A stretch of DNA of 64,000 nucleotides from IMG/VR virus record IMGVR_UViG_3300035670_000052, positions 1-64,000 of that record; one strand, 5' to 3'. The position numbers and the translations under genes were made by a program. The notes beneath the pieces are model-generated. The model was not told the DNA's origin and searched no databases. It saw nothing but the letters and a program-made list of their open reading frames with translations. The DNA comes from a virus. Positions 3,094 through 62,875 of the stretch are shown piece by piece (the first letter of the stretch is position 1; the number at the start of each line of letters is the position of its first letter).

Positions 3094-3235
3094 TTGGGCA
3101 ATTGATCGCATTCATTTTCTCAGTGAAAAAAAAGATTATGAGGATGCTCATGCGATTCAATCTGAATTTAGTGAATGGTTGAATCCAGATATTCCAGAGC
3201 ATGATGTTTTTTCACTACAGTGTATAGGAGAATAA
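3056..3235 (+). CDS. Small acidic conserved-type protein
   Basis: A 59-residue ORF (MVTLEETLQTTHDWAIDRIH...) that begins inside the 3' end of the SegE-like gene and ends one base before the C39 peptidase start. It is acidic and probably helical, with no transmembrane segment. Tight packing between two genes on the same strand supports it being real. Function unknown. Confidence 0.6.
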   Translation: MVTLEETLQTTHDWAIDRIHFLSEKKDYEDAHAIQSEFSEWLNPDIPEHDVFSLQCIGE

Positions 3236-6466: not shown

Positions 6467-6540
6467 GCCTCAGTAACTCAGTGGACTAGAGTATCCGCCT
6501 TCTAAGCGGTTAGCCGTTGGTTCGAATCCAACCTGAGGCG
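6467..6540 (+). tRNA. tRNA-Arg(TCT)
   Basis: Acceptor GCCTCAG/CTGAGGC, anticodon loop TTCTAAG, T-arm TTGG TTCGAAT CCAA. It reads AGA/AGG, codons rare in marine Synechococcus but frequent in this AT-rich phage (inference). Confidence 0.93.
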
Positions 6541-6541
6541 C

Positions 6542-6572
6542 TTGACTTTTTGAGAAAAAAGTCTTATAAATA
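6542..6572 (+). promoter_or_regulatory. Overlapping sigma70-type and late promoter
   Basis: TTGACT (6542-6547), 17 bases, TATAAA (6565-6570). The -10 box is part of a TATAAATA late octamer at 6565-6572, so the small ORF downstream may be read both early and late. Confidence 0.6.
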
Positions 6573-6593
6573 AAAACACTTAGGTCGAAAACA

Positions 6594-6695
6594 ATGTCTT
6601 ACCCAATGCCCACAAAACAGTTTAGTATTCTCGATTGCCGCTATTGGCATATTGAGGGTGCTCCCCTGTTTGCGGATATGGATAGACATATGTAA
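6594..6695 (+). CDS. 33-residue small protein
   Basis: Starts MSYPMPTKQFSILDCRYWHI and ends GAPLFADMDRHM. It sits between a promoter and a strong intrinsic terminator, so it forms its own transcription unit, which is the main support for it. The Cys/Trp/Tyr-rich centre is unusual for random sequence. Function unknown. Confidence 0.5.
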   Translation: MSYPMPTKQFSILDCRYWHIEGAPLFADMDRHM

Positions 6696-6720
6696 GATAT
6701 GTAATTCATAAAAGCAAAGA

Positions 6721-6755
6721 GGGGAGAGAAACCAAAAAGTTTCCTCCCCTTTTTT
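6721..6755 (+). terminator. Strong intrinsic terminator
   Basis: GGGGAGAGAAAC and GTTTCCTCCCC form an 11-pair stem with one bulged base and a short A-rich loop, followed by six T. It closes the 33-residue ORF unit. Confidence 0.8.
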
Positions 6756-6881
6756 GTTGCTTGTGACAGTTTCCTAAGTGTCCACCAATCTCCCCCCAGA
6801 GACCAAACGGTGGTATTCTAATCAAGTGGTCGAGAGAGACCACACCGAACCTAGACAACCGAATATTTATCCATATTATGT
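6756..6881 (+). other. Spacer with hairpins before tRNA-Lys
   Basis: No ORF. GTGGTC/GACCAC forms a hairpin (about 6836-6853). A 5-bp AT-only repeat AATAT/ATATT (6862-6866 and 6873-6877) ends 4 bases before tRNA-Lys, a weak version of the leader hairpins seen elsewhere. Confidence 0.4.
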
Positions 6882-6953
6882 GGGACATTAACTCAGCGGT
6901 AGAGTATCCGGCTTTTAACCGGTTAGTCCTCGGTTCGAATCCGAGATGTCCCA
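6882..6953 (+). tRNA. tRNA-Lys(TTT)
   Basis: Acceptor GGGACAT/ATGTCCC, anticodon loop TTTTAAC, T-arm CTCGG TTCGAAT CCGAG. Confidence 0.93.
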
Positions 6954-6957
6954 TCGT

Positions 6958-7048
6958 GGGAGAGTGCCTACTGTCGGCAATACGTGTAGGAGCGGTCTGT
7001 AAAACCGTCACATAGGAACCATCGGGGGTTCGATTCCCTCCTCTCTCA
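6958..7048 (+). tRNA. tRNA-Tyr(GTA)
   Basis: Acceptor GGGAGAG/CTCTCTC with one G-T pair, anticodon loop CTGTAAA, a 15-base variable arm as expected for class II bacterial tRNA-Tyr, T-arm GGGGG TTCGATT CCCTC. The D arm is long (CCTAC/GTAGG). Confidence 0.88.
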
Positions 7049-7050
7049 CT

Positions 7051-7090
7051 GCATGATCTGCCCAATGATACCATTGGTAGTGGATTGTGC
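7051..7090 (+). other. Leader hairpin before tRNA-Asp
   Basis: GCATGATC (7051-7058) pairs along its whole length with GATTGTGC (7083-7090), including two G-T pairs. Inside it CCAATG/CATTGG (7062-7077) forms a second helix. The 3' arm ends 4 bases before tRNA-Asp. Confidence 0.65.
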
Positions 7091-7094
7091 TCTT

Positions 7095-7167
7095 GACCCT
7101 ATAGTGAAGTGGTCTATCACGCCTACCTGTCTAGTAGGAATCTGGGATTCGAATTCCCATAGGGTCG
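7095..7167 (+). tRNA. tRNA-Asp(GTC)
   Basis: Acceptor GACCCTA/TAGGGTC, D stem GTGA/TCAC, anticodon stem-loop CCTAC CTGTCTA GTAGG, T-arm TGGGA TTCGAAT TCCCA. Confidence 0.92.
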
Positions 7168-7342
7168 TTGGAGATCATCAGTACGAATCTCCACGCATTC
7201 TTCAGAGGTTGCCAGTTTGCAGAAGAATGTCGTAGTAATAACTGGAATTGGGGAGGGATTCCTAACCACCATCGGATGATGGCAGGATTCATAAGGCTAC
7301 GAAGCGTAATCCGTAAGTAACTTCGTGTGGGATACCCCTCTC
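7168..7342 (+). ncRNA. Hairpin-rich noncoding spacer with a 7-bp closing helix
   Basis: No ORF and no canonical tRNA. Visible helices: GGAGAT/ATCTCC, CATTCTTC/GAAGAATG, CCATC/GATGG and ACGAAG/CTTCGT. The second half (7251-7342) is closed by GGGAGGG/CCCTCTC, a 7-bp helix like a tRNA acceptor stem, enclosing about 78 bases but without a T arm. It ends 4 bases before tRNA-Glu. It may be a decayed class II tRNA or a distinct structured RNA. Confidence 0.45.
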
Positions 7343-7346
7343 ATCT

Positions 7347-7418
7347 GGTCCTATCGTCTAGTGGTGAGGACATCACTCTTTCACAGTGAAGACACGGGTT
7401 CAAATCCCGTTAGGACTA
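7347..7418 (+). tRNA. tRNA-Glu(TTC)
   Basis: Acceptor GGTCCTA/TAGGACT with a terminal G-T, anticodon stem-loop TCACT CTTTCAC AGTGA, T-arm ACGGG TTCAAAT CCCGT. Confidence 0.92.
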
Positions 7419-7421
7419 CCA

Positions 7422-7495
7422 TCCAGGAGTAAGTCAGCGGTAGACGGCACCGTTTGGGGCGGTGAAGACGTTGGTTCAAATCCAACCTTCTGGAC
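7422..7495 (+). tRNA. tRNA-Pro(TGG), first copy
   Basis: Acceptor TCCAGGA/TTCTGGA, anticodon stem-loop CACCG TTTGGGG CGGTG, T-arm TTGG TTCAAAT CCAA. A second, more host-like tRNA-Pro(TGG) lies at 14002. Confidence 0.9.
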
Positions 7496-7497
7496 TT

Positions 7498-7571
7498 GGG
7501 AACATAGCTCCAATTGGTAGAGCACATGATTGAAGATCATGGTGTTATCGGTTCAAATCCGATTGTTCCCT
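7498..7571 (+). tRNA. tRNA-Phe(GAA)
   Basis: Acceptor GGGAACA/TGTTCCC, D stem GCTC/GAGC, anticodon stem-loop CATGA TTGAAGA TCATG, T-arm ATCGG TTCAAAT CCGAT. Confidence 0.93.
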
Positions 7572-7573
7572 CT

Positions 7574-7687
7574 TGACCTTATGGTCACGGAGATTCACTT
7601 CCTCCGTTATGAAACTTCGGTTGGTTAGTGATAGGTTTTTCAGTCCGAAAACTGAAACTGGTAGGTTGTTGATATCGACTCCTACCT
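7574..7687 (+). ncRNA. Four consecutive hairpins between tRNA-Phe and tRNA-Ile
   Basis: No ORF. In order: TGACC/GGTCA with a 4-base loop, ACGGAG/CTCCGT, TTTCAGT/ACTGAAA, and GGTAGG/CCTACC (7660-7665 and 7682-7687) containing a GTTGATATCGAC near-palindrome. The last helix ends 5 bases before tRNA-Ile. The function is unknown; it is drawn as a possible processed spacer RNA. Confidence 0.45.
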
Positions 7688-7692
7688 TGATG

Positions 7693-7763
7693 GAATCGTA
7701 GCTCAGTGGTAGAGCACACCCCTGATAAGGGTGCGGTCACAAGTTCAAATCTTGTCGGTTCCA
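7693..7763 (+). tRNA. tRNA-Ile(GAT)
   Basis: Acceptor GGAATCG/CGGTTCC, anticodon stem-loop CACCC CTGATAA GGGTG, T-arm ACAAG TTCAAAT CTTGT. Confidence 0.93.
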
Positions 7764-7766
7764 CTT

Positions 7767-7856
7767 GGGAGAGCACCTTGGTTGGTGGGTACGACGGTAT
7801 CAGAGACGGTTCGATTCCGTCCATTGGCAATGGTGGTTCGATTCCACCCTCTCCCA
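7767..7856 (+). tRNA. tRNA-like 90-mer, possibly a tRNA-Ser(CGA) relic
   Basis: A perfect acceptor GGGAGAG/CTCTCCC and a proper T-arm GGTGG TTCGATT CCACC bound a class II-sized body. The central helix GACGG/CCGTC also has the loop TTCGATT, which would read as anticodon CGA but looks like a duplicated T arm, and the 31 bases before it are too long for a normal D arm. CATT/AATG could be a variable arm. I regard it as a recombined or decayed tRNA; function doubtful. Confidence 0.4.
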
Positions 7857-7860
7857 ACTT

Positions 7861-7932
7861 GGCAGTGTAGTTCAGTGGCAGAACAAGAGATTCATACCCT
7901 CTATGTCGGTAGTTCAATTCTACCCACTGCCT
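7861..7932 (+). tRNA. tRNA-Met(CAT), elongator type
   Basis: Acceptor GGCAGTG/CACTGCC, D stem GTTC/GAAC, anticodon loop TTCATAC on a stem with one A-C mismatch next to the loop, T-arm GGTAG TTCAATT CTACC. It could instead be a tRNA-Ile2 if C34 is modified to lysidine. Confidence 0.85.
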
Positions 7933-7933
7933 T

Positions 7934-8005
7934 GTGTCGTTAGCCTAGTGGTCAAGGCATCTGTTTGTGAAACAGAGGAGATGAGTTCAATTCTCATACG
8001 ACACC
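7934..8005 (+). tRNA. tRNA-His(GTG)
   Basis: Acceptor GTGTCGT/ACGACAC, anticodon stem-loop TCTGT TTGTGAA ACAGA, T-arm TGAG TTCAATT CTCA. Confidence 0.92.
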
Positions 8006-8007
8006 CC

Positions 8008-8081
8008 GTTCGGGTGGCAGAGTGGTCGAATGCGGAAGTCTGCAAAACTTCTTATCGTGGGTTCGAATCCCACCCTGAACT
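8008..8081 (+). tRNA. tRNA-Cys(GCA)
   Basis: Acceptor GTTCGGG/CCTGAAC, anticodon stem-loop GAAGT CTGCAAA ACTTC, T-arm GTGGG TTCGAAT CCCAC. Confidence 0.92.
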
Positions 8082-8086
8082 CCTAA

Positions 8087-8158
8087 TCCAGAATCGACTA
8101 ATTGGCAGGTCAGCACCCTTTGAAGGTGTACGTCTAGGTTCGAATCCTAGTTCTGGAA
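8087..8158 (+). tRNA. tRNA-Gln(TTG)
   Basis: Acceptor TCCAGAA/TTCTGGA, anticodon stem-loop GCACC CTTTGAA GGTGT, T-arm CTAGG TTCGAAT CCTAG. Confidence 0.92.
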
Positions 8159-8161
8159 CTT

Positions 8162-8235
8162 GTCCGTGTAGCCCAATTGGAAGAGGCACCACCTTGAGGG
8201 GGTGGGTGTTGGAGGTTCGAGTCCTCTCACGGACA
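8162..8235 (+). tRNA. tRNA-Leu(GAG) with a short variable loop
   Basis: Acceptor GTCCGTG/CACGGAC, anticodon stem-loop CCACC TTGAGGG GGTGG, then only five bases (GTGTT) before the T arm. Bacterial tRNA-Leu normally has a long variable arm, so this isotype assignment by anticodon is odd. Confidence 0.8.
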
Positions 8236-8238
8236 TAT

Positions 8239-8312
8239 GCCCGATTGATGGAATTGGCATACATACTTGCCTTAGAAGCAAGGTTTTACAGGTTCGAATC
8301 CTGTATCGGGCA
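8239..8312 (+). tRNA. tRNA-Leu(TAG) with a short variable loop
   Basis: Acceptor GCCCGAT/ATCGGGC, anticodon stem-loop CTTGC CTTAGAA GCAAG, variable loop GTTTT, T-arm ACAGG TTCGAAT CCTGT. The D region (TGATGGAATTGGCATACAT) resembles bacterial tRNA-Leu, but the long variable arm is missing. Confidence 0.85.
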
Positions 8313-8316
8313 CCTT

Positions 8317-8388
8317 GTTGGGATGGTGTAATTGGTAGCACGGAAATCTCCAAAATTTCTAGTTAGGGTTCAAGTCCCTATCCCTTCG
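8317..8388 (+). tRNA. tRNA-Trp(CCA)
   Basis: Anticodon stem-loop GAAAT CTCCAAA ATTTC and T-arm TAGGG TTCAAGT CCCTA are clear. The acceptor GTTGGGA/TCCCTTC has two adjacent T-T mismatches at pairs 2 and 3, as if an original GAAGGGA had changed. Confidence 0.82.
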
Positions 8389-8391
8389 CCT

Positions 8392-8465
8392 GCCCTCTTA
8401 ACTCAGTGGACCAGAGTGCTTGGCTACGAACCAAGAAGTCGCAAGTTCGAATCTTGCAGAGGGTG
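8392..8465 (+). tRNA. tRNA-Arg(ACG)
   Basis: Acceptor GCCCTCT/AGAGGGT, anticodon stem-loop CTTGG CTACGAA CCAAG, T-arm GCAAG TTCGAAT CTTGC. A34 would need deamination to inosine to read CGN fully. Confidence 0.92.
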
Positions 8466-8505
8466 CCATTTAAATCTAAATAGCAACGAGAGGTGTGATA
8501 GGAAA

Positions 8506-8976
8506 ATGGAATTAGTAGAACCACATTCAACTATACTAGTTCTGAATAGTTCTTACGAGCCACTACACTTCACTAATTGGAAACGTGCAATTGGTTTACT
8601 TTTTAAACAGAAAGCAAAACTTATCTCCAAGAGAATTATTCGTTTGGTAAATTATGTGAAACTTCCATTTTCCTATGGGAAATCCAATTACCCAACGAGA
8701 GCACTCATCTATAAACGGGATGATTATGAGTGTCAGTATTGTGGGTCTAAAAATGACCTTACAATTGACCATATAATTCCCCGCTCAAAAGGTGGTCAAG
8801 ATACTTGGGATAATTTAGTTGCTTGTTGCACATCTTGTAATCTTAAAAAAGGAAATAAACTTCTTAAAGATACTAATATGGTCTTAAAAAGTATTCCACA
8901 AGCACCAATTAGTAGAGTGATACTTGATATTCAGAAAACAAAAGTTTCTGAATGGAAGGACTATTTGTTTCAGTAG
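8506..8976 (+). CDS. HNH endonuclease inside the tRNA array
   Basis: 156 residues. The start is the ATG at 8506, behind a GAGGTG ribosome site; longer frames run through tRNA genes. Residues 8-40 (ILVLNSSYEPLHFTNWKRAI) match a cyanobacterial HNH family. The HNH zinc core is CQYCGSKNDLTIDHIIPRSK plus CCTSCNLKKGN, with two CxxC pairs and the DH of the motif. It probably nicks or cuts DNA and may be a free-standing homing enzyme that lodged between tRNAs. The host-like N-terminus suggests exchange with cyanobacteria. Confidence 0.85.
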   Translation: MELVEPHSTILVLNSSYEPLHFTNWKRAIGLLFKQKAKLISKRIIRLVNYVKLPFSYGKSNYPTRALIYKRDDYECQYCGSKNDLTIDHIIPRSKGGQDTWDNLVACCTSCNLKKGNKLLKDTNMVLKSIPQAPISRVILDIQKTKVSEWKDYLFQ

Positions 8977-8980
8977 GGGG

Positions 8981-9009
8981 TTGACAAATTTTTGAAAATA
9001 CCCTAATAT
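8981..9009 (+). promoter_or_regulatory. Strong sigma70-type promoter (TTGACA-17-TAATAT)
   Basis: Perfect -35 TTGACA (8981-8986), a 17-base spacer, TAATAT (9004-9009). It restarts transcription of the tRNA array after the HNH gene. Confidence 0.75.
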
Positions 9010-9021
9010 ATAAAAGACAGA

Positions 9022-9064
9022 GGTTAAGTCCCTGATATGTCCTTGAGGCATACCACACTTAACC
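9022..9064 (+). other. Leader hairpin before tRNA-Met
   Basis: GGTTAAGT (9022-9029) and ACTTAACC (9057-9064) form a perfect 8-bp helix with an inner TATG/CATA. The 3' arm ends 6 bases before the tRNA. Confidence 0.65.
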
Positions 9065-9070
9065 CTTCAT

Positions 9071-9142
9071 CGTGGGGAAGTGTAACGGTTGCACAGAAGT
9101 CTCATAAGCTTCAGGTAGGTGGTTCAACTCCACCCCCCGCCT
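9071..9142 (+). tRNA. tRNA-Met(CAT), initiator-like
   Basis: Acceptor CGTGGGG/CCCCGCC leaves a C1-C72 mismatch, a hallmark of bacterial initiator tRNA, and the anticodon loop CTCATAA also matches initiators. However, the anticodon stem GAAGT/GCTTC lacks the three G-C pairs. T-arm GGTGG TTCAACT CCACC. It could be an initiator-derived or elongator Met. Confidence 0.83.
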
Positions 9143-9149
9143 CCAATTT

Positions 9150-9222
9150 GGGGAATTAGCTCATTTGGTAGAGCACCGCTTTTGCACGGCGGGGGTGAGG
9201 AGTTCGAGTCTCCTATTTTCCA
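9150..9222 (+). tRNA. tRNA-Ala(TGC)
   Basis: Acceptor GGGGAAT/ATTTTCC with two G-T pairs, anticodon stem-loop CCGCT TTTGCAC GGCGG, T-arm AGGAG TTCGAGT CTCCT. Confidence 0.9.
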
Positions 9223-9224
9223 CT

Positions 9225-9267
9225 GGGGAAGTGATCCTGCGGATTCGTCCAAGAGCTCTCCTTCTCC
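9225..9267 (+). other. 43-base tRNA-like mini-element before tRNA-Asn
   Basis: GGGGAAG (9225-9231) and CTTCTCC (9261-9267) make a 7-bp closing helix around ATCC/GGAT and the AGAGCTCT palindrome. It looks like a truncated tRNA and ends 6 bases before tRNA-Asn. Confidence 0.45.
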
Positions 9268-9273
9268 TTATAT

Positions 9274-9346
9274 TCCACACGACCGAGCAAGCGAACGGGC
9301 CCGTCTGTTAAACGGAGATAGCTAGGGGCAGTACCTAGGTGTGGAG
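9274..9346 (+). tRNA. tRNA-Asn(GTT) with a non-canonical elbow
   Basis: Acceptor TCCACAC/GTGTGGA and anticodon loop CTGTTAA are clear. The T loop is GGCAGTA instead of TTCRANY, on a CTAGG/CCTAG stem. The D loop AGCAAGCGAA lacks the usual GG, and position 8 is G, not T. The tRNA-Val at 11650 shares all three changes. Confidence 0.85.
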
Positions 9347-9365
9347 TTTCTAACCTTTAAAATAT

Positions 9366-9373
9366 TATAAATA
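9366..9373 (+). promoter_or_regulatory. T4-type late promoter (TATAAATA)
   Basis: An exact TATAAATA stands 22 bases before the GTG start of the HNH gene. Confidence 0.6.
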
Positions 9374-9394
9374 ATAATAAAGTTGGAGGTTAGA

Positions 9395-9937
9395 GTGTCT
9401 AGTAAAGCAGTAGTTGAATTTCGTCAAAGAAGAAAAAGATGGGCAGTTGAAGCATTTGGTGGTAAGTGTGGTATTTGTGGATATAATAAATGTGTTGAAG
9501 CATTGGATTTTCATCATATTGATCCTACACAAAAAGATTTTACCTTAACAGCATCAGTAGCAAATCGACAAATATTTGTTGAAGAACTTAAAAAGTGTGT
9601 TTGTTTGTGCTCTAATTGCCATCGTGAAGTTCATTCTGGCGTTACACAAATTCCCGATAATATATTAAAATTTGATGAAAGTTTTTCTAATAAACCTGTA
9701 CCAGAAAAACCAAAACATCCTTGTAAAGAGTGTGGAAAACTAACAACAGTTAATCATCTATTTTGCTCAATAAAATGTTCTAATAAAAATAAAGAAGTTG
9801 CCAAGTGGCCAAATAATCAAGAACTACAAAAGTTAGTTGATGAATATGGTTATCGAGGAACTGGTAGAATGTTTGGAGTTAGTGATAATGCGGTTAGAAA
9901 AAGATTGCAGAAACGAGGACTATTGACATCTGTTTGA
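9395..9937 (+). CDS. HNH endonuclease with a C-terminal helix-turn-helix
   Basis: 180 residues. GTG is chosen as start because GGAGG lies 5 bases upstream; a TTG at 9383 is the alternative. CGICGYNKCVEALDFHHIDP and CVCLCSNCHREVHSG form the zinc-bound HNH core. A second Cys cluster (CKECGKLTTVNHLFCSIKC) follows, and the C-terminus (YRGTGRMFGVSDNAVRKRLQ) reads as a DNA-binding helix-turn-helix. Layout fits a site-specific phage homing enzyme. A late promoter precedes it and a promoter for the next RNA lies within its 3' end. Confidence 0.85.
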   Translation: MSSKAVVEFRQRRKRWAVEAFGGKCGICGYNKCVEALDFHHIDPTQKDFTLTASVANRQIFVEELKKCVCLCSNCHREVHSGVTQIPDNILKFDESFSNKPVPEKPKHPCKECGKLTTVNHLFCSIKCSNKNKEVAKWPNNQELQKLVDEYGYRGTGRMFGVSDNAVRKRLQKRGLLTSV

Positions 9938-9951
9938 GAATATGATAATAT
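9923..9951 (+). promoter_or_regulatory. Sigma70-type promoter (TTGACA-17-TAATAT)
   Basis: TTGACA (9923-9928), 17 bases, TAATAT (9946-9951), overlapping the HNH stop. Predicted start near 9958, directly before a run of hairpins. Confidence 0.72.
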
Positions 9952-9960
9952 ATAGATATT

Positions 9961-10079
9961 GGAAGGTCTGGAAATGTCTGGGTCTTCCTTTCTAAATCCT
10001 AACCTTGTTAGGTCGGGGATTTGATCACCCCCGCCAGTTGCAGAAAGTGTCTTCTGCGGGTGTCGGGCACTCGATACCC
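9961..10079 (+). ncRNA. Five-hairpin noncoding RNA between a promoter and tRNA-Thr
   Basis: No ORF. Consecutive helices: GGAAG/CTTCC (9961-9988), CCTAAC/GTTAGG (9998-10012), CGGGG/CCCCG (10014-10033), GCAGAA/TTCTGC (10040-10057), and GGGT-TCG/CGA-ACCC (10058-10079). The last ends 4 bases before tRNA-Thr. Almost every base falls in a hairpin, which argues for a real structured transcript. Confidence 0.55.
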
Positions 10080-10083
10080 ATTT

Positions 10084-10155
10084 GCCCTTGTAGCTCAGTG
10101 GTAGAGCAACGGTTTTGTAAACCGTTGGTCGCTGGTTCAAATCCAGTCGGGGGCT
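10084..10155 (+). tRNA. tRNA-Thr(TGT)
   Basis: Acceptor GCCCTTG/CGGGGGC, anticodon stem-loop ACGGT TTTGTAA ACCGT, T-arm GCTGG TTCAAAT CCAGT. Confidence 0.93.
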
Positions 10156-10183
10156 TGACATAATACCCATTATGTCTTATACT
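10155..10183 (+). promoter_or_regulatory. Sigma70-type promoter (TTGACA-17-TATACT)
   Basis: TTGACA begins on the last base of tRNA-Thr; 17 bases later is TATACT (10178-10183). It drives tRNA-Gly. Confidence 0.7.
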
Positions 10184-10209
10184 TCATATGTCCGTGTGAA
10201 GTGAAGTGC

Positions 10210-10229
10210 TGGGAGAGTCAAATCTCCCA
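10210..10229 (+). other. Leader hairpin before tRNA-Gly
   Basis: TGGGAGA/TCTCCCA, a perfect 7-bp helix with a 6-base loop, ends 4 bases before the tRNA. There is no T tract, so it is not a usual terminator. Confidence 0.65.
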
Positions 10230-10233
10230 TTTT

Positions 10234-10305
10234 GCGGAGTTAGTTCAGTGGTAGAACGCTATCCTTCCAAGTTAGATGTCGTCGGTTCGAATCCGATACT
10301 CCGCT
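10234..10305 (+). tRNA. tRNA-Gly(TCC)
   Basis: Acceptor GCGGAGT/ACTCCGC, anticodon loop CTTCCAA on a stem with one T-T mismatch, T-arm GTCGG TTCGAAT CCGAT. Confidence 0.91.
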
Positions 10306-10362
10306 TTCCCCAAAATCATGGGGATACTAAATAATACTCGTAGTTGTAAATCTTAATACAAT

Positions 10363-11247
10363 ATGACTTTTCAAAATATTATTACTGCTAGTGTAGTTGC
10401 TACGACTTCTTTGGTTGCGCCTGCGATGGCGCAAGTCACTAGCGTTAAGCAACTGAGTGATGTTCAACCTACTCAGTGGTCTTATCAAGCAATCACTAAT
10501 TTGGTAGAGCGTTACGGTTGTGTTGCTGGTTATCCTAATGGCACTTTCCGTCCAGGTCAACCTGCAACTCGTGCCGAACTTGCTACTCTGACTAATGCTT
10601 GTCTTGATCGCATTAGTGAGTATCAAAGTGCTGCTGATGCTGCTCTTGCTTCTGCTCTTCGTGCTGAATTTGCCAAAGAACTCGCTGTTACCAATACTCG
10701 CGTGTCCGCTCTCGAAGTTGCCACTGCTCAAAAAGCTCAAGGTGTTGGTAACTATGTTGGTGTTGGCGTTCTTCTCAATCAGCAAGGCACTGCTGGTAAC
10801 GGTTTCAGTGCTCAGCGTACCATCTCCGGTGCTACCGTTCAGGCACGTTATGCCGTGAAGAACTTCACCAATCTGAATGCTGTTTCGGTTCGTCCTTATG
10901 CTAGCTTCGTAGGCACTCCTGCTGGTCAGTTGGGTTCTGGTGGTGGTGCTCTGGTGTCTTATGACTGGAGCATCTCTCGTGCCAAGTCTGGTGCGAGCCG
11001 TGCTAACGTCTACACTGGTGTTGGTTATCAGATCCCCTTCGTAAACAACACTGCTGCTAACTTCCAGTCTGCTGTTGGCAATCGTGGTCAAGTTGTTCTT
11101 GCTCTTGGTGTCGAAGGTCGTATCACTAACTCTCTGGTTGGTTTTGCTGATCTCAAGTTCCCTACCACCAATGCTTCTAATAGCTATGGTGTTACTAACG
11201 GAACTTATTCACCCGTATTCACTACTGGTTTGGGCATTAAGTTCTGA
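10363..11247 (+). CDS. SLH-domain mini-porin-like outer-membrane protein
   Basis: 294 residues. A signal peptide ends near AMA (residue 23). Residues about 27-75 form one SLH domain (VKQLSDVQPTQWSYQAITNL, CVAGYPNGTFRPGQPATRAE). Residues 78-118 are a coiled coil, and the rest alternates as beta strands and ends in Phe (GLGIKF), typical of outer-membrane barrels. SLH-coiled coil-barrel is the plan of cyanobacterial Som/OprB porins, which are much longer (about 500 residues), so this is a shortened version. Its codons are more GC-rich than its neighbours, suggesting a host origin. It may alter the infected cell's envelope. Confidence 0.78.
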   Translation: MTFQNIITASVVATTSLVAPAMAQVTSVKQLSDVQPTQWSYQAITNLVERYGCVAGYPNGTFRPGQPATRAELATLTNACLDRISEYQSAADAALASALRAEFAKELAVTNTRVSALEVATAQKAQGVGNYVGVGVLLNQQGTAGNGFSAQRTISGATVQARYAVKNFTNLNAVSVRPYASFVGTPAGQLGSGGGALVSYDWSISRAKSGASRANVYTGVGYQIPFVNNTAANFQSAVGNRGQVVLALGVEGRITNSLVGFADLKFPTTNASNSYGVTNGTYSPVFTTGLGIKF

Positions 11248-11272
11248 TATTTTAATACGTAGTGTAAATTGG

Positions 11273-11307
11273 GGGGAGTTGACAACGACTCCCCTTTTTA
11301 GTATAAT
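11273..11307 (+). terminator. Terminator with a promoter -35 box in its loop
   Basis: GGGGAGT/ACTCCCC (11273-11279 and 11288-11294) plus TTTTT ends the porin-like gene. TTGACA (11279-11284) lies across the loop, and a perfect TATAAT (11302-11307) follows after exactly 17 bases. The same design recurs at 15083, 27887 and 63306. Confidence 0.82.
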
Positions 11308-11328
11308 AGGTATTGAATCAGGAGGTTT

Positions 11329-11487
11329 ATGTCTCTCATTTCTCAAATGGACCGTGAAATGGTCATTGAAGCACTTGAGTATTATATTGATAAATTAAAA
11401 GAAGATAATTGCACTCAAGCATCTATTACGGTGTTTAATACTCTTCTTCGCTGGATTGAACTAGAGCATTTTAAAAATGAAAATTAA
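11329..11487 (+). CDS. 52-residue small protein
   Basis: Starts MSLISQMDREMVIEALEYYI after a strong AGGAGG ribosome site and a consensus promoter. It is helical and acidic, with a Cys and a Trp in the second half. It overlaps the next gene by 11 bases. Function unknown. Confidence 0.65.
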   Translation: MSLISQMDREMVIEALEYYIDKLKEDNCTQASITVFNTLLRWIELEHFKNEN

Positions 11488-11641
11488 TCTCTGGTACTGT
11501 AAAGATATGAATCTTTGGCGTTGGACTCTGATTGATGATCATCGACCAATAGTAAAACAAGAGTCTGGACAGAGAGAAAATCTACGAGATGCCATGAATG
11601 ATGTGGCTAATACAGTAGAATATCTTATGGGTCAGTTTTGA
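11477..11641 (+). CDS. 54-residue small protein
   Basis: Begins MKINLWYCKDMNLWRWTLID, rich in Trp, overlapping the previous gene. It ends 8 bases before tRNA-Val. No domain recognised. Translational coupling with its neighbour is likely. Confidence 0.6.
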   Translation: MKINLWYCKDMNLWRWTLIDDHRPIVKQESGQRENLRDAMNDVANTVEYLMGQF

Positions 11642-11649
11642 CTTTTTAT

Positions 11650-11722
11650 GCCCGATGACCCAGCTAGTGAAGGGACCTGCCTTACAAGCAGGCAGCGGTA
11701 GGGGCGGAACCTATATCGGGCA
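11650..11722 (+). tRNA. tRNA-Val(TAC) with a non-canonical elbow
   Basis: Acceptor GCCCGAT/ATCGGGC and anticodon stem-loop CCTGC CTTACAA GCAGG are perfect. The T loop is GGCGGAA, the D loop AGCTAGTGAA without GG, and position 8 is G. This mirrors tRNA-Asn at 9274 and departs from all other tRNAs here. Confidence 0.85.
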
Positions 11723-11726
11723 CTTT

Positions 11727-11734
11727 TATAAATA
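11727..11734 (+). promoter_or_regulatory. T4-type late promoter (TATAAATA)
   Basis: Exact octamer 17 bases before the Dps-like gene and immediately behind tRNA-Val. Confidence 0.6.
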
Positions 11735-11751
11735 CCTAAAAAACTGGTATA

Positions 11752-12186
11752 ATGGAAAAGTTATATAAATTACTTTCTGATACTCAAGCAACTCTTTTTA
11801 TGTTGTTTCAGAAAACTTGGGTCTATCACTGGAATGTGGTGGGTTCGGAGTTTTATCAGTTTCATAAAGTCTTCGGTAAACAATACGAAGAAATGTTTGA
11901 AGAGATTGATCGGCTCACAGAGCACATGAGATACCTGAAAATTAAACCTGTTAGCACTCTCACAAGAATTACTGAAGTTTCTCACGTTCTCGAAGCAAAT
12001 AACAAGCTTGATGATGTGGGAATGGTAAAAGACTTGATTGCTGATAACGAAACTTTGGTTGGTCTTTTTAAACAAGTTGCCGAAGAAGCAGAATTGCAAA
12101 AATCAAGAGGCACTACAAATCTTGTTGATGATTTGAATGAATCACACGGAAAATTTATCTGGATGTTAAGATCTTTTACTGAATGA
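11752..12186 (+). CDS. Dps/ferritin-like protein
   Basis: 144 residues. TWVYHWNVVGSEFYQFHKVF followed by YEEMFEEIDRLTEHMRYL is the ferroxidase signature of the Dps family (His, then Asp/Glu on the next helix). The four-helix length fits a short Dps. Such proteins sequester iron and protect DNA from oxidative damage, and may help the phage during high-light infection (inference). A late promoter precedes it. The next gene starts six bases after its stop. Confidence 0.82.
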   Translation: MEKLYKLLSDTQATLFMLFQKTWVYHWNVVGSEFYQFHKVFGKQYEEMFEEIDRLTEHMRYLKIKPVSTLTRITEVSHVLEANNKLDDVGMVKDLIADNETLVGLFKQVAEEAELQKSRGTTNLVDDLNESHGKFIWMLRSFTE

Positions 12187-12192
12187 AATACG

Positions 12193-12450
12193 ATGGAAAA
12201 TTTAAGAATCAGATGTCGCTCCTGTGGAAAGGAGTTAGAAGGGCATCCAACGAAAACTGTGACTTGTGGTTGTCCAAATATGGCAACTATTCGTGGAGAT
12301 AAGATTTCGGCAGTTGACTTGGACAACATAGTTATGCTAAACTCTTATCATAGAAAATCAAAGTCTGGTGTTCTCACTAACGAAGACCTTGCTTTTCAGG
12401 AAGCAAGAAGGCAACGTAAAGTAAGAAGACTTGATTTTGAAGTCCGTTGA
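12193..12450 (+). CDS. Small zinc-ribbon protein
   Basis: 85 residues. IRCRSCGKELEGHPTKTVTC followed by GCPNMATIRGDKIS gives CxxC...CxC metal ligands. This compact ribbon occurs in cyanobacteria and cyanophages without an established function. The 3' end overlaps the leader hairpin of tRNA-Ser: the stop codon lies in the loop. Confidence 0.7.
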   Translation: MENLRIRCRSCGKELEGHPTKTVTCGCPNMATIRGDKISAVDLDNIVMLNSYHRKSKSGVLTNEDLAFQEARRQRKVRRLDFEVR

Positions 12451-12456
12451 GGACTT
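12440..12456 (+). other. Leader hairpin before tRNA-Ser, over a stop codon
   Basis: AAGTCC (12440-12445) and GGACTT (12451-12456) form a 6-bp helix, with the zinc-ribbon gene's TGA in the loop. It ends 4 bases before the tRNA. Confidence 0.6.
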
Positions 12457-12460
12457 TATT

Positions 12461-12547
12461 GGAGAGTCAAACCGATAGGTGACGGTAGCTGTCTTGAAAA
12501 CAGTCGAGGTGTTAAAGCCCTTAGGCGTTCGATTCGCCTACTCTCCG
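12461..12547 (+). tRNA. tRNA-Ser(TGA)
   Basis: Acceptor GGAGAGT/ACTCTCC, anticodon stem-loop GCTGT CTTGAAA ACAGT, a long class II variable arm, T-arm AGGCG TTCGATT CGCCT. Confidence 0.92.
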
Positions 12548-12605
12548 TTACAAATATTACAAAATTTTAGATTTTTTTAATCTATATTTGAGTATCAACA
12601 CAAAC

Positions 12606-12636
12606 TTGACAAGTTGAAACTATCGATTAGTATAAC
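12606..12636 (+). promoter_or_regulatory. Sigma70-type promoter (TTGACA-19-TATAAC)
   Basis: TTGACA (12606-12611) and TATAAC (12631-12636) are 19 bases apart, slightly long, upstream of a run of overlapping small genes. Confidence 0.55.
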
Positions 12637-12660
12637 TAGTAGTATTCAACTTAAAACCTT

Positions 12661-12813
12661 ATGGATCAGCACACCTATGAGAACTGGGTGAAGATCAAGG
12701 AGACATTCGAATCTTCTGGTAACACTAACAATATGTTCTATAAAAGAGCAGTTGAAATTGTAAAAACCAGAAAAGATCCTTTGGCAAAATTTCTTGGAGA
12801 TGAGAAGTGGTGA
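12661..12813 (+). CDS. 50-residue small protein
   Basis: Starts MDQHTYENWVKIKETFESSG and continues with NMFYKRAVEIVKTRKDPLAK. It is basic and helical. It is the first gene of a six-gene run of tiny overlapping ORFs behind one promoter. Function unknown. Confidence 0.65.
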   Translation: MDQHTYENWVKIKETFESSGNTNNMFYKRAVEIVKTRKDPLAKFLGDEKW

Positions 12814-13010
12814 AACCTCAAGATGAATTGGTAAGTCGTTATGAAGTTCAGGGGATGATTGATGCAGCAATACGACGACACAATCGTAATGCTTCTATCA
12901 TTAGTATGTGCATCGGTTGGGTGGTTCTTGCTTTATTTGCTGAGGGACTCCTCCGACTGGTAGGTGTTATTCCACCATTATTACCGTTTTTAAAATTCAC
13001 GTTAAATTAA
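12810..13010 (+). CDS. Small single-pass membrane protein
   Basis: 66 residues from the GTG at 12810 (or one codon earlier), overlapping the previous stop. MVKPQDELVSRYEVQGMID is polar; ASIISMCIGWVVLALFAEGL is a transmembrane helix, and VIPPLLPFLKF is a second hydrophobic patch. Function unknown. Confidence 0.65.
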   Translation: MKPQDELVSRYEVQGMIDAAIRRHNRNASIISMCIGWVVLALFAEGLLRLVGVIPPLLPFLKFTLN

Positions 13011-13012
13011 CT

Positions 13013-13117
13013 ATGTTAGAAGAAGATTATAAAGAACTTTATGATCTTATACAAAAACTAAAAATGCAAGAATTATTTGAAGAACCATCTACTTACGAAG
13101 ACGAGGAAGATGATTAA
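13013..13117 (+). CDS. 34-residue acidic peptide
   Basis: MLEEDYKELYDLIQKLKMQE then an acidic end (EDEEDD). It is translationally coupled: its last codons contain the next ATG. Small, so support comes mainly from tight gene packing. Confidence 0.5.
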   Translation: MLEEDYKELYDLIQKLKMQELFEEPSTYEDEEDD

Positions 13118-13199
13118 AACTGTTATATCTTCAATTTTACTTTTTTCTTCAATTATATTGTTTATCTGTTGGGGATTAACTAATGCTTACCCACACTAA
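13110..13199 (+). CDS. 29-residue membrane peptide
   Basis: MIKTVISSILLFSSIILFIC then WGLTNAYPH: a single hydrophobic helix, possibly a signal anchor. It overlaps both neighbours. Very short; function unknown. Confidence 0.45.
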   Translation: MIKTVISSILLFSSIILFICWGLTNAYPH

Positions 13200-13377
13200 G
13201 CAAAGATATAATTTTGCTATGACTTGCTTTGTGAGGTCTTATGGCAGAAGAGTTTTGAATGATGAAAGTATCAAACAATTTTGCAAAGAGTGGTCTGAGT
13301 GGGATATAAATGCTCCACTAGACGATAGTGTAGATCAATACTTTCATTATGAATATAAGAATTGGAGAGGAGTATGA
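13183..13377 (+). CDS. 64-residue small protein
   Basis: MLTHTKQRYNFAMTCFVRSY followed by FCKEWSEWD and YFHYEYKNWRGV. It is aromatic-rich and soluble. A second possible start is the ATG at 13219. It overlaps the genes on both sides. Confidence 0.55.
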   Translation: MLTHTKQRYNFAMTCFVRSYGRRVLNDESIKQFCKEWSEWDINAPLDDSVDQYFHYEYKNWRGV

Positions 13378-13496
13378 TTTTTCATATAGTAGAACTACTT
13401 GCATCAAATCCAGTATGGATAGGACTATGTGGAGGTGGATTAATTATTCCACCTATCATAGGTATAATGATTATACATAATAATAAACAAAAATAA
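13374..13496 (+). CDS. 40-residue membrane peptide
   Basis: MIFHIVELLASNPVWIGLCG then GGLIIPPIIGIMIIHNNKQK. It is mostly one or two hydrophobic helices with a basic C-terminus, coupled to the previous gene through ATGA. Function unknown. Confidence 0.5.
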   Translation: MIFHIVELLASNPVWIGLCGGGLIIPPIIGIMIIHNNKQK

Positions 13497-13511
13497 TTTA
13501 ATTAAAAATTT

Positions 13512-13949
13512 ATGGCAACCGTTAATTATACTATTACTAACTCAGTAAAAGATAGCTGGACTGGATATTTTGAAGTAAGTAGCTTATCTAGTACTGTAAG
13601 CGATTATAATTCAATTAGTGCTATTGGAGCTGGTACTGGATTATTTTCTTTTACTCCAACTCAGTTTGAAATGTATCCTGATAATCCAGGTACTAATGTA
13701 GGTAGAACTTATGTTACTTGGAGAAGTATTGCCTTTCCTGGAGAACAGTTTCCATCTTCTGGCTATAGTTTTGATATTTGGTCTGAGGGATTATATACTG
13801 CAATTAATTCTGGTGCAACATGGAGTACATTGATTAGTACTGGAACTTATAGTCTTTCAAATAATAAATGGACAGTAGTTTATAATTATGATCCTCCGTA
13901 TCCATTATTTCATGGACAGAATGGTACAATTACTTTTACTGCTGGATAA
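13512..13949 (+). CDS. Beta-rich protein of unknown function
   Basis: 145 residues, MATVNYTITNSVKDSWTGYF at the start, Ser/Thr/Tyr/Gly-rich with almost no Lys after the first 20 residues. The pattern suggests an all-beta surface or decoration protein. There is no signal peptide. Similar composition occurs in phage structural modules, but I recognise no family. Confidence 0.6.
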   Translation: MATVNYTITNSVKDSWTGYFEVSSLSSTVSDYNSISAIGAGTGLFSFTPTQFEMYPDNPGTNVGRTYVTWRSIAFPGEQFPSSGYSFDIWSEGLYTAINSGATWSTLISTGTYSLSNNKWTVVYNYDPPYPLFHGQNGTITFTAG

Positions 13950-13955
13950 TGTAGA

Positions 13956-13984
13956 TTGACAATTCACGTTTATGGGAGTATAAT
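13956..13984 (+). promoter_or_regulatory. Perfect sigma70-type promoter of tRNA-Pro
   Basis: TTGACA (13956-13961), 17 bases, TATAAT (13979-13984). The -10 box lies in the loop of the inverted repeat at 13968-13997. Confidence 0.78.
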
Positions 13985-13997
13985 TACTTCCATAAAC
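13968..13997 (+). repeat. 12-bp inverted repeat around the -10 box
   Basis: GTTTATGGGAGT (13968-13979) pairs with ACTTCCATAAAC (13986-13997) over all 12 positions with one G-T. The 3' arm ends 4 bases before tRNA-Pro. A transcript from the promoter would lack the 5' arm, so the symmetry may act as DNA or only in read-through RNA. Confidence 0.7.
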
Positions 13998-14001
13998 ATT
14001 A

Positions 14002-14075
14002 CGGGGTGTAGCGCAGTTTGGTAGCGCATCCGCTTTGGGAGCGGGAGGTCGTAGGTTCGAATCCTATCACCCCGA
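14002..14075 (+). tRNA. tRNA-Pro(TGG), second copy, host-like
   Basis: Acceptor CGGGGTG/CACCCCG, D stem GCGC/GCGC, anticodon stem-loop TCCGC TTTGGGA GCGGG, T-arm GTAGG TTCGAAT CCTAT. The sequence is close to ordinary cyanobacterial tRNA-Pro, unlike the copy at 7422, so it was probably acquired separately. Confidence 0.93.
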
Positions 14076-28849: not shown

Positions 28850-28955
28850 AATGTTAAGAAATCCTCATAATTCTTAACATTGTTCCTCTACCTAACCGAG
28901 ACCTATGGGGAGGTTAAACACAGTCTCTCATACCCACAATGGAGGGTGTTGTGGG
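28850..28955 (+). promoter_or_regulatory. Structured psbA leader (PhotoRC-like candidate)
   Basis: An 11-bp perfect helix AATGTTAAGAA/TTCTTAACATT (28850-28881) sits at the expected RNA 5' end. Further on CCCACAA/TTGTGGG (28933-28955) and GAGAC/GTCTC can pair. Conserved PhotoRC RNA motifs are known before psbA in marine cyanobacteria and phages; whether this is one is a suggestion from position, not a confirmed match. Confidence 0.5.
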
Positions 28956-29007
28956 AAATACTATACTATCCAGTTCCCCCTGGACTTTATTTACCCTTTA
29001 ACGAAAA

Positions 29008-30300
29008 ATGACTGCTACTATTGCTACACGCCGTTCTGGCGAAAACCTCTGGGAACAATTTTGCCAGTGGGTTACTTCAACGAACAACCGTCTTTATGTC
29101 GGTTGGTTCGGAACTCTGATGATTCCTACATTGCTTGCTGCTACTGTATGTTTCATCGTCGCCTTCATTGCAGCCCCACCAGTGGACATTGATGGCATTC
29201 GTGAACCTGTTGCTGGTTCACTCATGTACGGAAACAACATCATCTCTGGTGCCGTTGTTCCAAGTTCTAATGCGATTGGATTGCATTTTTACGCAATCTG
29301 GGAAGCAACAAGTCTTGATGAATGGCTTTATAATGGCGGACCTTTCCAACTGATTGTGTTCCACTTCCTCATTGGCATCTATTGCTATATGGGTCGTGAA
29401 TGGGAACTCTCATATCGTTTGGGTATGCGTCCTTGGATTATGGTTGCTTACAGTGCTCCTGTTGCTGCTGCATCTGCTGTATTCCTAGTATATCCTTTTG
29501 GACAAGGTTCATTCTCTGATGCGATGCCTCTTGGTATCTCTGGTACTTTCAACTATATGTTTGTGTTCCAGGCAGAGCACAATATCCTGATGCACCCATT
29601 CCATATGCTTGGAGTTGCTGGTGTCTTCGGTGGTTCTCTGTTCAGTGCTATGCACGGTTCTCTTGTTACTTCTTCACTGGTTCGTGAAACCACTGAAACT
29701 GAATCGCAGAACTACGGTTACAAGTTCGGTCAAGAAGAAGAGACTTATAACATCGTTGCTGCTCACGGTTATTTTGGTCGTCTAATCTTCCAATATGCAT
29801 CGTTCAACAACTCTCGTAGTCTTCACTTCTTCCTTGCTGCCTGGCCCGTTGTAGGCATCTGGTTTGCTGCTCTTGGTGTGAGCACCATGGCATTCAACCT
29901 GAATGGTTTCAACTTCAATCAGTCAATTCAAGATAGTCAAGGTCATGTTATTAACACTTGGGCGGACATCTTGAATCGTGCTGGACTCGGAATGGAAGTT
30001 ATGCATGAGCGTAGATTTGGGTATTGCGCTCTTTAAATCGGATGAATTGCTGGAAACCCCAAGTGGGCAATCAGCAGCCAAGTCTTAGATACATCTAAGA
30101 AAGGTTCAGAGACTACCTGAGGAATAAAGTTTCCTTAATAACAGGGTTAGCGTCCGACACCAGAAATGGTGATGATATAGTCCAATCCTGGTAGTAATAC
30201 CAGATTTCAAGAGGTTTATAAGAATGCCCACAATTTCCCTCTTGACCTTGCATCAGTTGAAGCAACTCCTGTTGCCTTGACTGCTCCAACCATCGGTTGA
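29008..30300 (+). CDS. psbA: Photosystem II D1 protein, split by an intron
   Basis: Exon 1 is 29008-30012 (335 codons) and exon 2 is 30223-30300, giving 360 residues, the normal D1 length. Exon 1 begins [20 protein letters not shown] and carries the five-helix D1 fold, including [13 protein letters not shown]-type segments and the [16 protein letters not shown] quinone/iron region. Exon 2 encodes [19 protein letters not shown] and the mature C-terminus. Reading straight through exon 1 stops after a few intron codons (RFGYCAL). D1 turns over fast in light, so a phage copy keeps photosystem II repaired during infection. Codon use is more GC-rich than the neighbours, as expected for a host-derived gene. 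Confidence 0.97.
30013..30222 (+). mobile_element. Group I intron in psbA
   Basis: 210 bases without an ORF. P1 is GAGCGT (exon end) with GCGCTC (30026-30031), giving the diagnostic U-G pair at the 5' splice site; the last intron base is G30222. The core blocks P (AATTGCTGG), Q (AATCAGCAGCCAAG), R (GTTCAGAGACTA) and S (GATATAGTCC) are all present in order. It is self-splicing in type. The psbA intron of S-PM2 is very similar in size and position. Confidence 0.92.
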
Positions 30301-62821: not shown

Positions 62822-62864
62822 AACGTTCATCCCTTTGGGACGGAAGTAAGCCGACTCGGAACGG
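62822..62864 (+). promoter_or_regulatory. Candidate glutamine riboswitch (Downstream-peptide/glnA type)
   Basis: CGTTC (62824-62828) pairs with GAACG (62859-62863) as P1, TCCC/GGGA (62830-62840) as the inner hairpin, followed by ACGGAAGTA, the highly conserved strand of glutamine-binding glnA and Downstream-peptide RNAs of cyanobacteria and their phages. A short conserved-type ORF follows at once, as in that motif class. In the usual form the strand continues GG; here it is AG. Confidence 0.7.
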
Positions 62865-62875
62865 ATCGTTCATCT

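Follow-up and report, generated by a model that had tools for sequence, protein, structure and literature searches.

The elbow varies so little among cellular tRNAs that covariation can scarcely be used to test its tertiary contacts. Staphylococcal cell-wall tRNA-Gly, whose elbow changes keep it off the ribosome, is of the Gly isotype, whereas the rewired phage tRNAs described below are of many isotypes. In eukaryotic tRNA-Ala(AGC) the combinations A54/A58 and R15/A48 are found, which were reportedly not seen in tRNAs of bacteria or archaea (PMC7566577). A review of non-canonical tRNAs (PMC7609411) covers tRNA-Pyl and mitochondrial tRNAs and does not contain the words "phage" or "elbow". According to it, tRNA-Pyl combines a 5-nt D loop and a 3-nt variable loop with a long anticodon stem, has a single nucleotide separating the acceptor stem from the D stem, is devoid of G18G19 and TΨC and shows G8 in D. 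hafniense; the type II tRNAs of metazoan mitochondria also lack the G18G19/TΨC consensus and have no contact between the D and T loops. A survey of viral tRNA genes mentions neither the T loop nor the D loop (PMC6409571). No description of phage elbows with A18.G55 and G54.G58 was found in the open-licence literature, within which they are apparently new, and an earlier report may exist.

In this work we have analyzed a gene of 73 nucleotides in the window, by which we mean the whole stretch of 64,000 nucleotides studied (positions 1 to 64,000 of IMG/VR virus record IMGVR_UViG_3300035670_000052, which comprises 119,575 bases). Judged from the sequence, it most likely encodes a functional phage tRNA-Asn, which has a tRNA-Val sister and in which the L-corner would be held by different, compensated tertiary pairs. 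Both genes belong to a group designated here class 1, the two-loop pattern of which is GACC.AGC.AGYGAA.GG...GGGCRG.AC. The elements of the locus are as follows.

9274..9346, + strand: tRNA-Asn(GUU) with rewired elbow, G73 included, CCA not encoded (sequence read, minimum-energy fold, model R1)
9281, + strand: G8, canonically U8 (sequence; invariant in the class-1 alignment)
9286..9295, + strand: D loop AGCAAGCGAA, numbered A13 G14 C15 A16 A18 G19 C20 G20a A21 A22 (register argued from the short loops of class 2)
9307..9309, + strand: anticodon GTT (sequence)
9321, + strand: G48, proposed partner of C15, changing the Levitt pair to C15-G48 (G48 invariant in class 1; 15-48 covaries)
9327..9333, + strand: T loop GGCAGTA, numbered G54 G55 C56 A57 G58 T59 A60 (sequence, class-1 alignment)
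11650..11722, + strand: tRNA-Val(UAC), class 1, discriminator A (sequence, Rfam, minimum-energy fold and R1 at 82 bits, the sequence being in the training set)
11662-11671: D loop of tRNA-Val, AGCTAGTGAA
11703-11709: T loop of tRNA-Val, GGCGGAA
6467..14075, + strand: tRNA array, with canonical tRNAs for most other isotypes

tRNA-Asn reads TCCACAC, G8 A9, CCG, AGCAAGCGAA, CGG and G26, followed by CCCGT, the anticodon loop CTGTTAA with anticodon GTT, ACGGA, the 5-nt variable loop GATAG, CTAGG, GGCAGTA, CCTAG, GTGTGGA and the discriminator G73. The acceptor (TCCACAC/GTGTGGA), T (CTAGG/CCTAG) and anticodon arms are intact save for one mismatch, C27/A43, the D loop region has 10 nt, and the 3' CCA is absent from the gene and would be added by a host enzyme. 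An earlier note on this DNA had recorded G8, a D loop without GG, the T loop GGCAGTA and an intact acceptor and anticodon, and apart from the C27/A43 mismatch our reading agrees. The same note held that all elbow partners had changed together; this is true of positions 8, 14, 18, 54, 55 and 58 and not of 19-56, where C56 is kept and the D loop offers A18 G19. Measured against the consensus U8, A14, G18G19 and T54 Ψ55 C56 A58, class 1 as a whole retains only G19 and C56.

Like the canonical elongator tRNA (Rfam RF00005), the gene product would form a cloverleaf of 7-5-5 bp with a short D stem and a 7-nt anticodon loop with U33, and shares with it the isotype discriminator, C56, G19, A21 and the array context; class 1 differs in G8, A18, G54, G55, G58, A60 and C15-G48. 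The traits of tRNA-Pyl (5-nt D loop, 3-nt variable loop, long anticodon stem, CUA anticodon) are not found in tRNA-Asn at 9274, and unlike tRNA-Pyl the phage tRNAs have a standard cloverleaf in which 18.55 and 19-56 are replaced, not lost. The cloverleaf is the predicted minimum-energy fold of 9274-9346, with a modest z-score of -1.67, and covariance model R1 scores the gene at 90 bits, the sequence itself being in the training set of the model. It was reported neither by ARAGORN nor by Rfam at the gathering threshold (29 bits for RF00005), and Rfam gave no match at 9274 down to E 10; tRNA-Val reached 33.6 bits with Rfam, in the small search only. The two copies of the D-loop motif within the window are exactly the tRNA-Asn and tRNA-Val genes, which exceeds what chance would give, and no canonical tRNA-Asn or tRNA-Val was found in the array at 6467..14075. 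In BLAST the best named-phage match of the array region was Synechococcus phage S-SRM01 (Kyanoviridae).

The array has further peculiarities. At 7765-7858 ARAGORN calls a tRNA-Ser(cga) of odd structure, which looks doubtful, with two successive T-arm-like hairpins, GACGGTTCGATTCCGTC and GGTGGTTCGATTCCACC, within one acceptor stem, and a hairpin-rich gap at 7573-7690, uncalled by tRNA finders, could hold another unusual RNA. Two HNH endonuclease-like ORFs (8332-8976 and 9383-9937, recognized by eye from CxxC/HH motifs) flank the special tRNA-Asn on both sides, between tRNA genes, and in Synechococcus phage MA01 an annotated HNH endonuclease directly follows the special tRNA-Val.

The earlier note had regarded a lack of homologues with the same loops as fatal to its reading; the opposite was found, since at least 119 viral stretches in IMG/VR carry the class-1 loops. 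A loose first DNA pattern gave mostly chance matches, and those forming a cloverleaf alone were retained. Class-1 members parse as Asn(GUU), Val(UAC), Ile(GAU) and Cys(GCA) with the fitting discriminators G, A, A and T. R1 gives true members 71-92 bits and no more than 50 bits to anything else in the loci. The pattern was matched in two of 84,980 cellular genomes: one match, in a Verrucomicrobia genome, lies inside a protein-coding ORF and was rejected as a chance hit, and the other is a true tRNA in a MAG contig that bears a genuine tRNA array. No plasmid match was found. Among named phages, Microcystis phage Mwe-JY26 carries a class-1 tRNA-Asn, unannotated, together with three further GGC-loop tRNAs, and the cultured Synechococcus phages S-N03 and MA01 carry a related tRNA-Val with the same D loop and the T loop AGCGTAA, in which A54.U58 replaces G54.G58; no named phage matched the Cys or Ile form in BLAST. 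Prevotella phage Lak-A1, also matched by BLAST, was not counted as a carrier because the T loop of the matched tRNA-Gly is canonical. Other elbow changes were seen in Lak-A1 at 3105 and 3378 (T loop ATCGTGC; T loop TTTGATT with GA in the D loop, of the A19-U56 type).

Loss of conserved elbow bases in a gene that annotation tools miss is what would be expected of a degenerate tRNA or pseudogene whose loops drifted after loss of function. The class-1 homologues argue strongly against this. In the 22 distinct class-1 sequences the loops are nearly invariant and form the most conserved part, and the same loops sit on many different stems kept paired through compensatory changes: 97% of stem cells are paired versus 69.6% in shuffles, double changes occur in 15 of the 20 stem pairs (in all 7 of the acceptor stem), and the stem covariation score is 0.716 versus 0.179 in shuffles. 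The discriminators match the isotype not only in class 1, as counted over distinct G55 tRNAs: Asn G 22/22, Cys T 11/11, Ile A 24/24 and Val(UAC) A 10/10. The special tRNA-Asn also substitutes for the ordinary one: among 123 arrays of at least 8 tRNAs, 44 have the special form, 40 the ordinary, 2 both and 37 neither (Fisher p = 1e-8). With compensated stems, conserved loops and isotype replacement all against it, decay was rejected as exceedingly improbable. Homologues that combine identical loops with compensated stems, and the pairwise elbow covariation described below, strongly support an alternative tertiary fold instead of decay, as the earlier note proposed.

Elbow rewiring is far wider than one array: it extends to most isotypes and to many groups of phages, and several different elbow designs occur. 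A second and larger group, class 2, has the T loop GGCRGNA, mostly keeps U8 and has a short D loop with A18 G19 (AGTA, AGCA or similar). Its pattern occurs in at least 120 viral stretches and was absent from 396 Actinomycetota and 289 Verrucomicrobiota genomes. Class-2 isotypes include Gly, Lys, His, Ile, Gln, Met, Pro, Asp, Glu, Phe, Thr, Val, Ala and more. Many of the genes encode CCA, as do 140 of 203 distinct G55 tRNAs. In Streptomyces phage Jay2Jay, gene 175 is a class-2 member with encoded CCA, a D loop reading AAAAGTA and a T loop reading GGCAGTA; its record labels it simply tRNA-His with the elbow unremarked. An independent control sample was fetched with a canonical tRNA pattern; there G55 was present in 8 of 475 bystander tRNAs, one of the eight having neither AG nor GG in the D loop, and 6 of 41 arrays of at least 5 tRNAs contained a G55 tRNA. 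Since ARAGORN recovers none of 126 class-1 genes and 7 of 115 other GGC-loop genes, such tRNAs, and with them phage isotype repertoires, are undercounted in public annotation.

The covariation of the elbow was analyzed with a tRNA scanner that requires the stems and leaves the loops free. It yielded 1,711 tRNAs (1,281 distinct) at 355 loci, and three in the reversed-sequence control. Among distinct tRNAs, AG was present in the D loop of 198/198 with G55C56 and GG in that of 1,021/1,033 with T55C56; T56 occurs mostly with G18A19, A56 with U19 and G56 with C19. As many loci had been fetched by patterns naming both loops, which could make the comparison circular, the pattern-matching tRNAs were removed and the remainder thinned to 775 clusters below 75% identity; the sample fetched with the canonical pattern served as a second check. 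The states in these clusters, whose frequencies are biased because the arrays were fetched via two special-loop patterns, were GU 656, AG 95, GC 17 and others 7 at 18.55; UA 657, AU 46, GG 42, AA 21, CA 4 and others 5 at 54.58; and G-C 733, A-U 14, U-A 6, C-G 2 and other 20 at 19-56. Positions 8.14 and 15-48 covary too, with 8.14 passing from U.A to G.G and 15-48 to C-G in class 1. For every elbow pair 0/1,000 permutations reached the observed value, a significance inflated by sequence relatedness even after clustering at 75%. Outside the helices the strongest mutual information was that of 15-48, 54-58 and 18-55, with 22-46, 9-23, 8-14 and 19-56 among the top 13 pairs, and 54-60 and 58-60, both within the T loop, ranking alongside the tertiary contacts. 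The phage tRNAs thereby differ from mitochondrial type II tRNAs, for which the review gives no D/T loop contact (PMC7609411): their D and T loops covary at 18.55 and 19-56 as compensated pairs. They resemble tRNA-Ala(AGC) in paired replacement at 54.58 and 15-48, purine 60 and an otherwise normal tRNA, whereas A18.G55, G54.G58 and changes at 19-56 are not described in that paper (PMC7566577). An elbow of another type was noticed in one further array, in which 7 of 12 tRNAs have A54 (5 with A54.U58).

The 7-nt D loops of class 2, AATAGTA and AAAAGTA, leave the numbering little freedom (A18 G19 Y20 A21). Carried over to class 1, this register gives A13 G14 C15 N16 A18 G19 Y20 G20a A21 A22 as the probable numbering, and with it G8.G14 and C15-G48, both of which occur as paired states in the full tRNA set. 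The 10-nt loop of class 1 may alternatively adopt an antiparallel register with G-C56 and Y-G55. The earlier note had counted G19-C56 among the changed contacts; it is most likely intact in class 1, because C56 is invariant and AG accompanies every distinct G55C56 tRNA. In the arrangement that we propose, A18.G55 would replace G18.Ψ55, G54.G58 would replace T54.A58, G8.G14 would stand for U8.A14 and C15-G48 for R15-Y48, and G19-C56 would be retained, offering RNase P, the L1 stalk and the ribosome a platform on which to stack; the A18.G55 and G.G geometries are predictions. The design would be one of several alternative elbows spread across phage tRNA arrays.

With no U at 54 or 55, neither m5U54 nor Ψ55 is possible, as the earlier note had foreseen in saying that the enzymes for these positions should not recognise tRNA-Asn; class 1 is also without s4U8. 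Opening and refolding of the elbow is normally the work of TruB and TrmA, which E. coli can do without under most conditions (PMC10969862); this makes an elbow free of modification plausible, and the rewired tRNAs would fold and work without m5U54 and Ψ55. Class-1 tRNAs are presumably transcribed, charged and used in translation, tRNA-Asn and tRNA-Val each supplying its own isotype for phage translation. This is the simplest reading given the correct discriminators and intact anticodon arms; the rewired tRNAs have a 7-nt anticodon loop with U33 and an isotype-fitting discriminator. A regulatory or biosynthetic tRNA-like RNA outside translation would have a parallel in staphylococcal cell-wall tRNA-Gly, in which the D and T loops are altered as well. 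Such a role is very unlikely for RNAs that span most isotypes, lie in ordinary arrays where they fill isotype gaps, and have anticodon loops and discriminators of the translation type.

Taking the genes as translational tRNAs, their rewiring may have been either selected, for fast maturation in infection or escape from an elbow factor, or reached by a neutral walk through compensated pairs. In a neutral network, tertiary pairs under weaker constraint would wander through isosteric or near-isosteric states with no specific advantage, GGC/AG being the commonest neighbour. We regard this as plausible and hold it tentatively. Several pairs indeed vary independently, with many combinations within one array: for 18.55 and 54.58 respectively, AG+UA was found 34 times, GU+AU 25, AG+AU 21 and GU+GG 8. 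Orthologous tRNA-Val genes bear either G54.G58 or A54.U58, and special and ordinary tRNAs stand side by side. Wandering of this kind accords poorly with class-1 loops strictly conserved across four isotypes and many contigs, and with alteration of the whole set (8.14, 15-48, 18.55, 54.58) at once.

A selective reason, whether freedom from modification of the elbow by the host or evasion of a host factor that reads it, is speculative. It is possible, and in our opinion rather doubtful, that phages evolved orthogonal elbows freeing their tRNAs from host modification or chaperone enzymes or from a host factor attacking the corner. Narrower, and unlikely as it stands, is the proposal that the rewired elbow keeps phage tRNAs working despite a host factor (a nuclease, a modification enzyme or a modification-dependent quality control) that reads the TΨC/D-loop corner during infection. 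It fits the almost complete confinement of rewired tRNAs to viruses, the inability of class 1 to form m5U54, Ψ55 and s4U8, and the action of TruB and TrmA through elbow opening (PMC10969862); against it, the arrays concerned consist mostly of tRNAs with a canonical elbow, and no elbow-reading anti-phage nuclease was identified in this analysis. Orthogonal elbows, if real, would add a hitherto unseen layer to the conflict between phage and host, and their covariation would be a natural proof of tertiary contacts that hardly vary in cells.

Phage tRNAs provide a covariation test of the elbow, as paired changes occur at each of 18.55, 19-56, 54.58, 8.14 and 15-48. Elbows that lack U54 and U55 are ready-made tools for separating the roles of modification from those of the fold, and the rewired elbows are parts for orthogonal tRNAs.

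Elsewhere in the window were noticed a group I intron at 29963-30204 (Rfam, 89 bits), a PhotoRC-II RNA at 28875-28969 (77 bits), which is a cis-regulatory element of photosystem genes of cyanobacteria and cyanophages, and, marginally above threshold, a glutamine riboswitch at 62822-62867 (36 bits).
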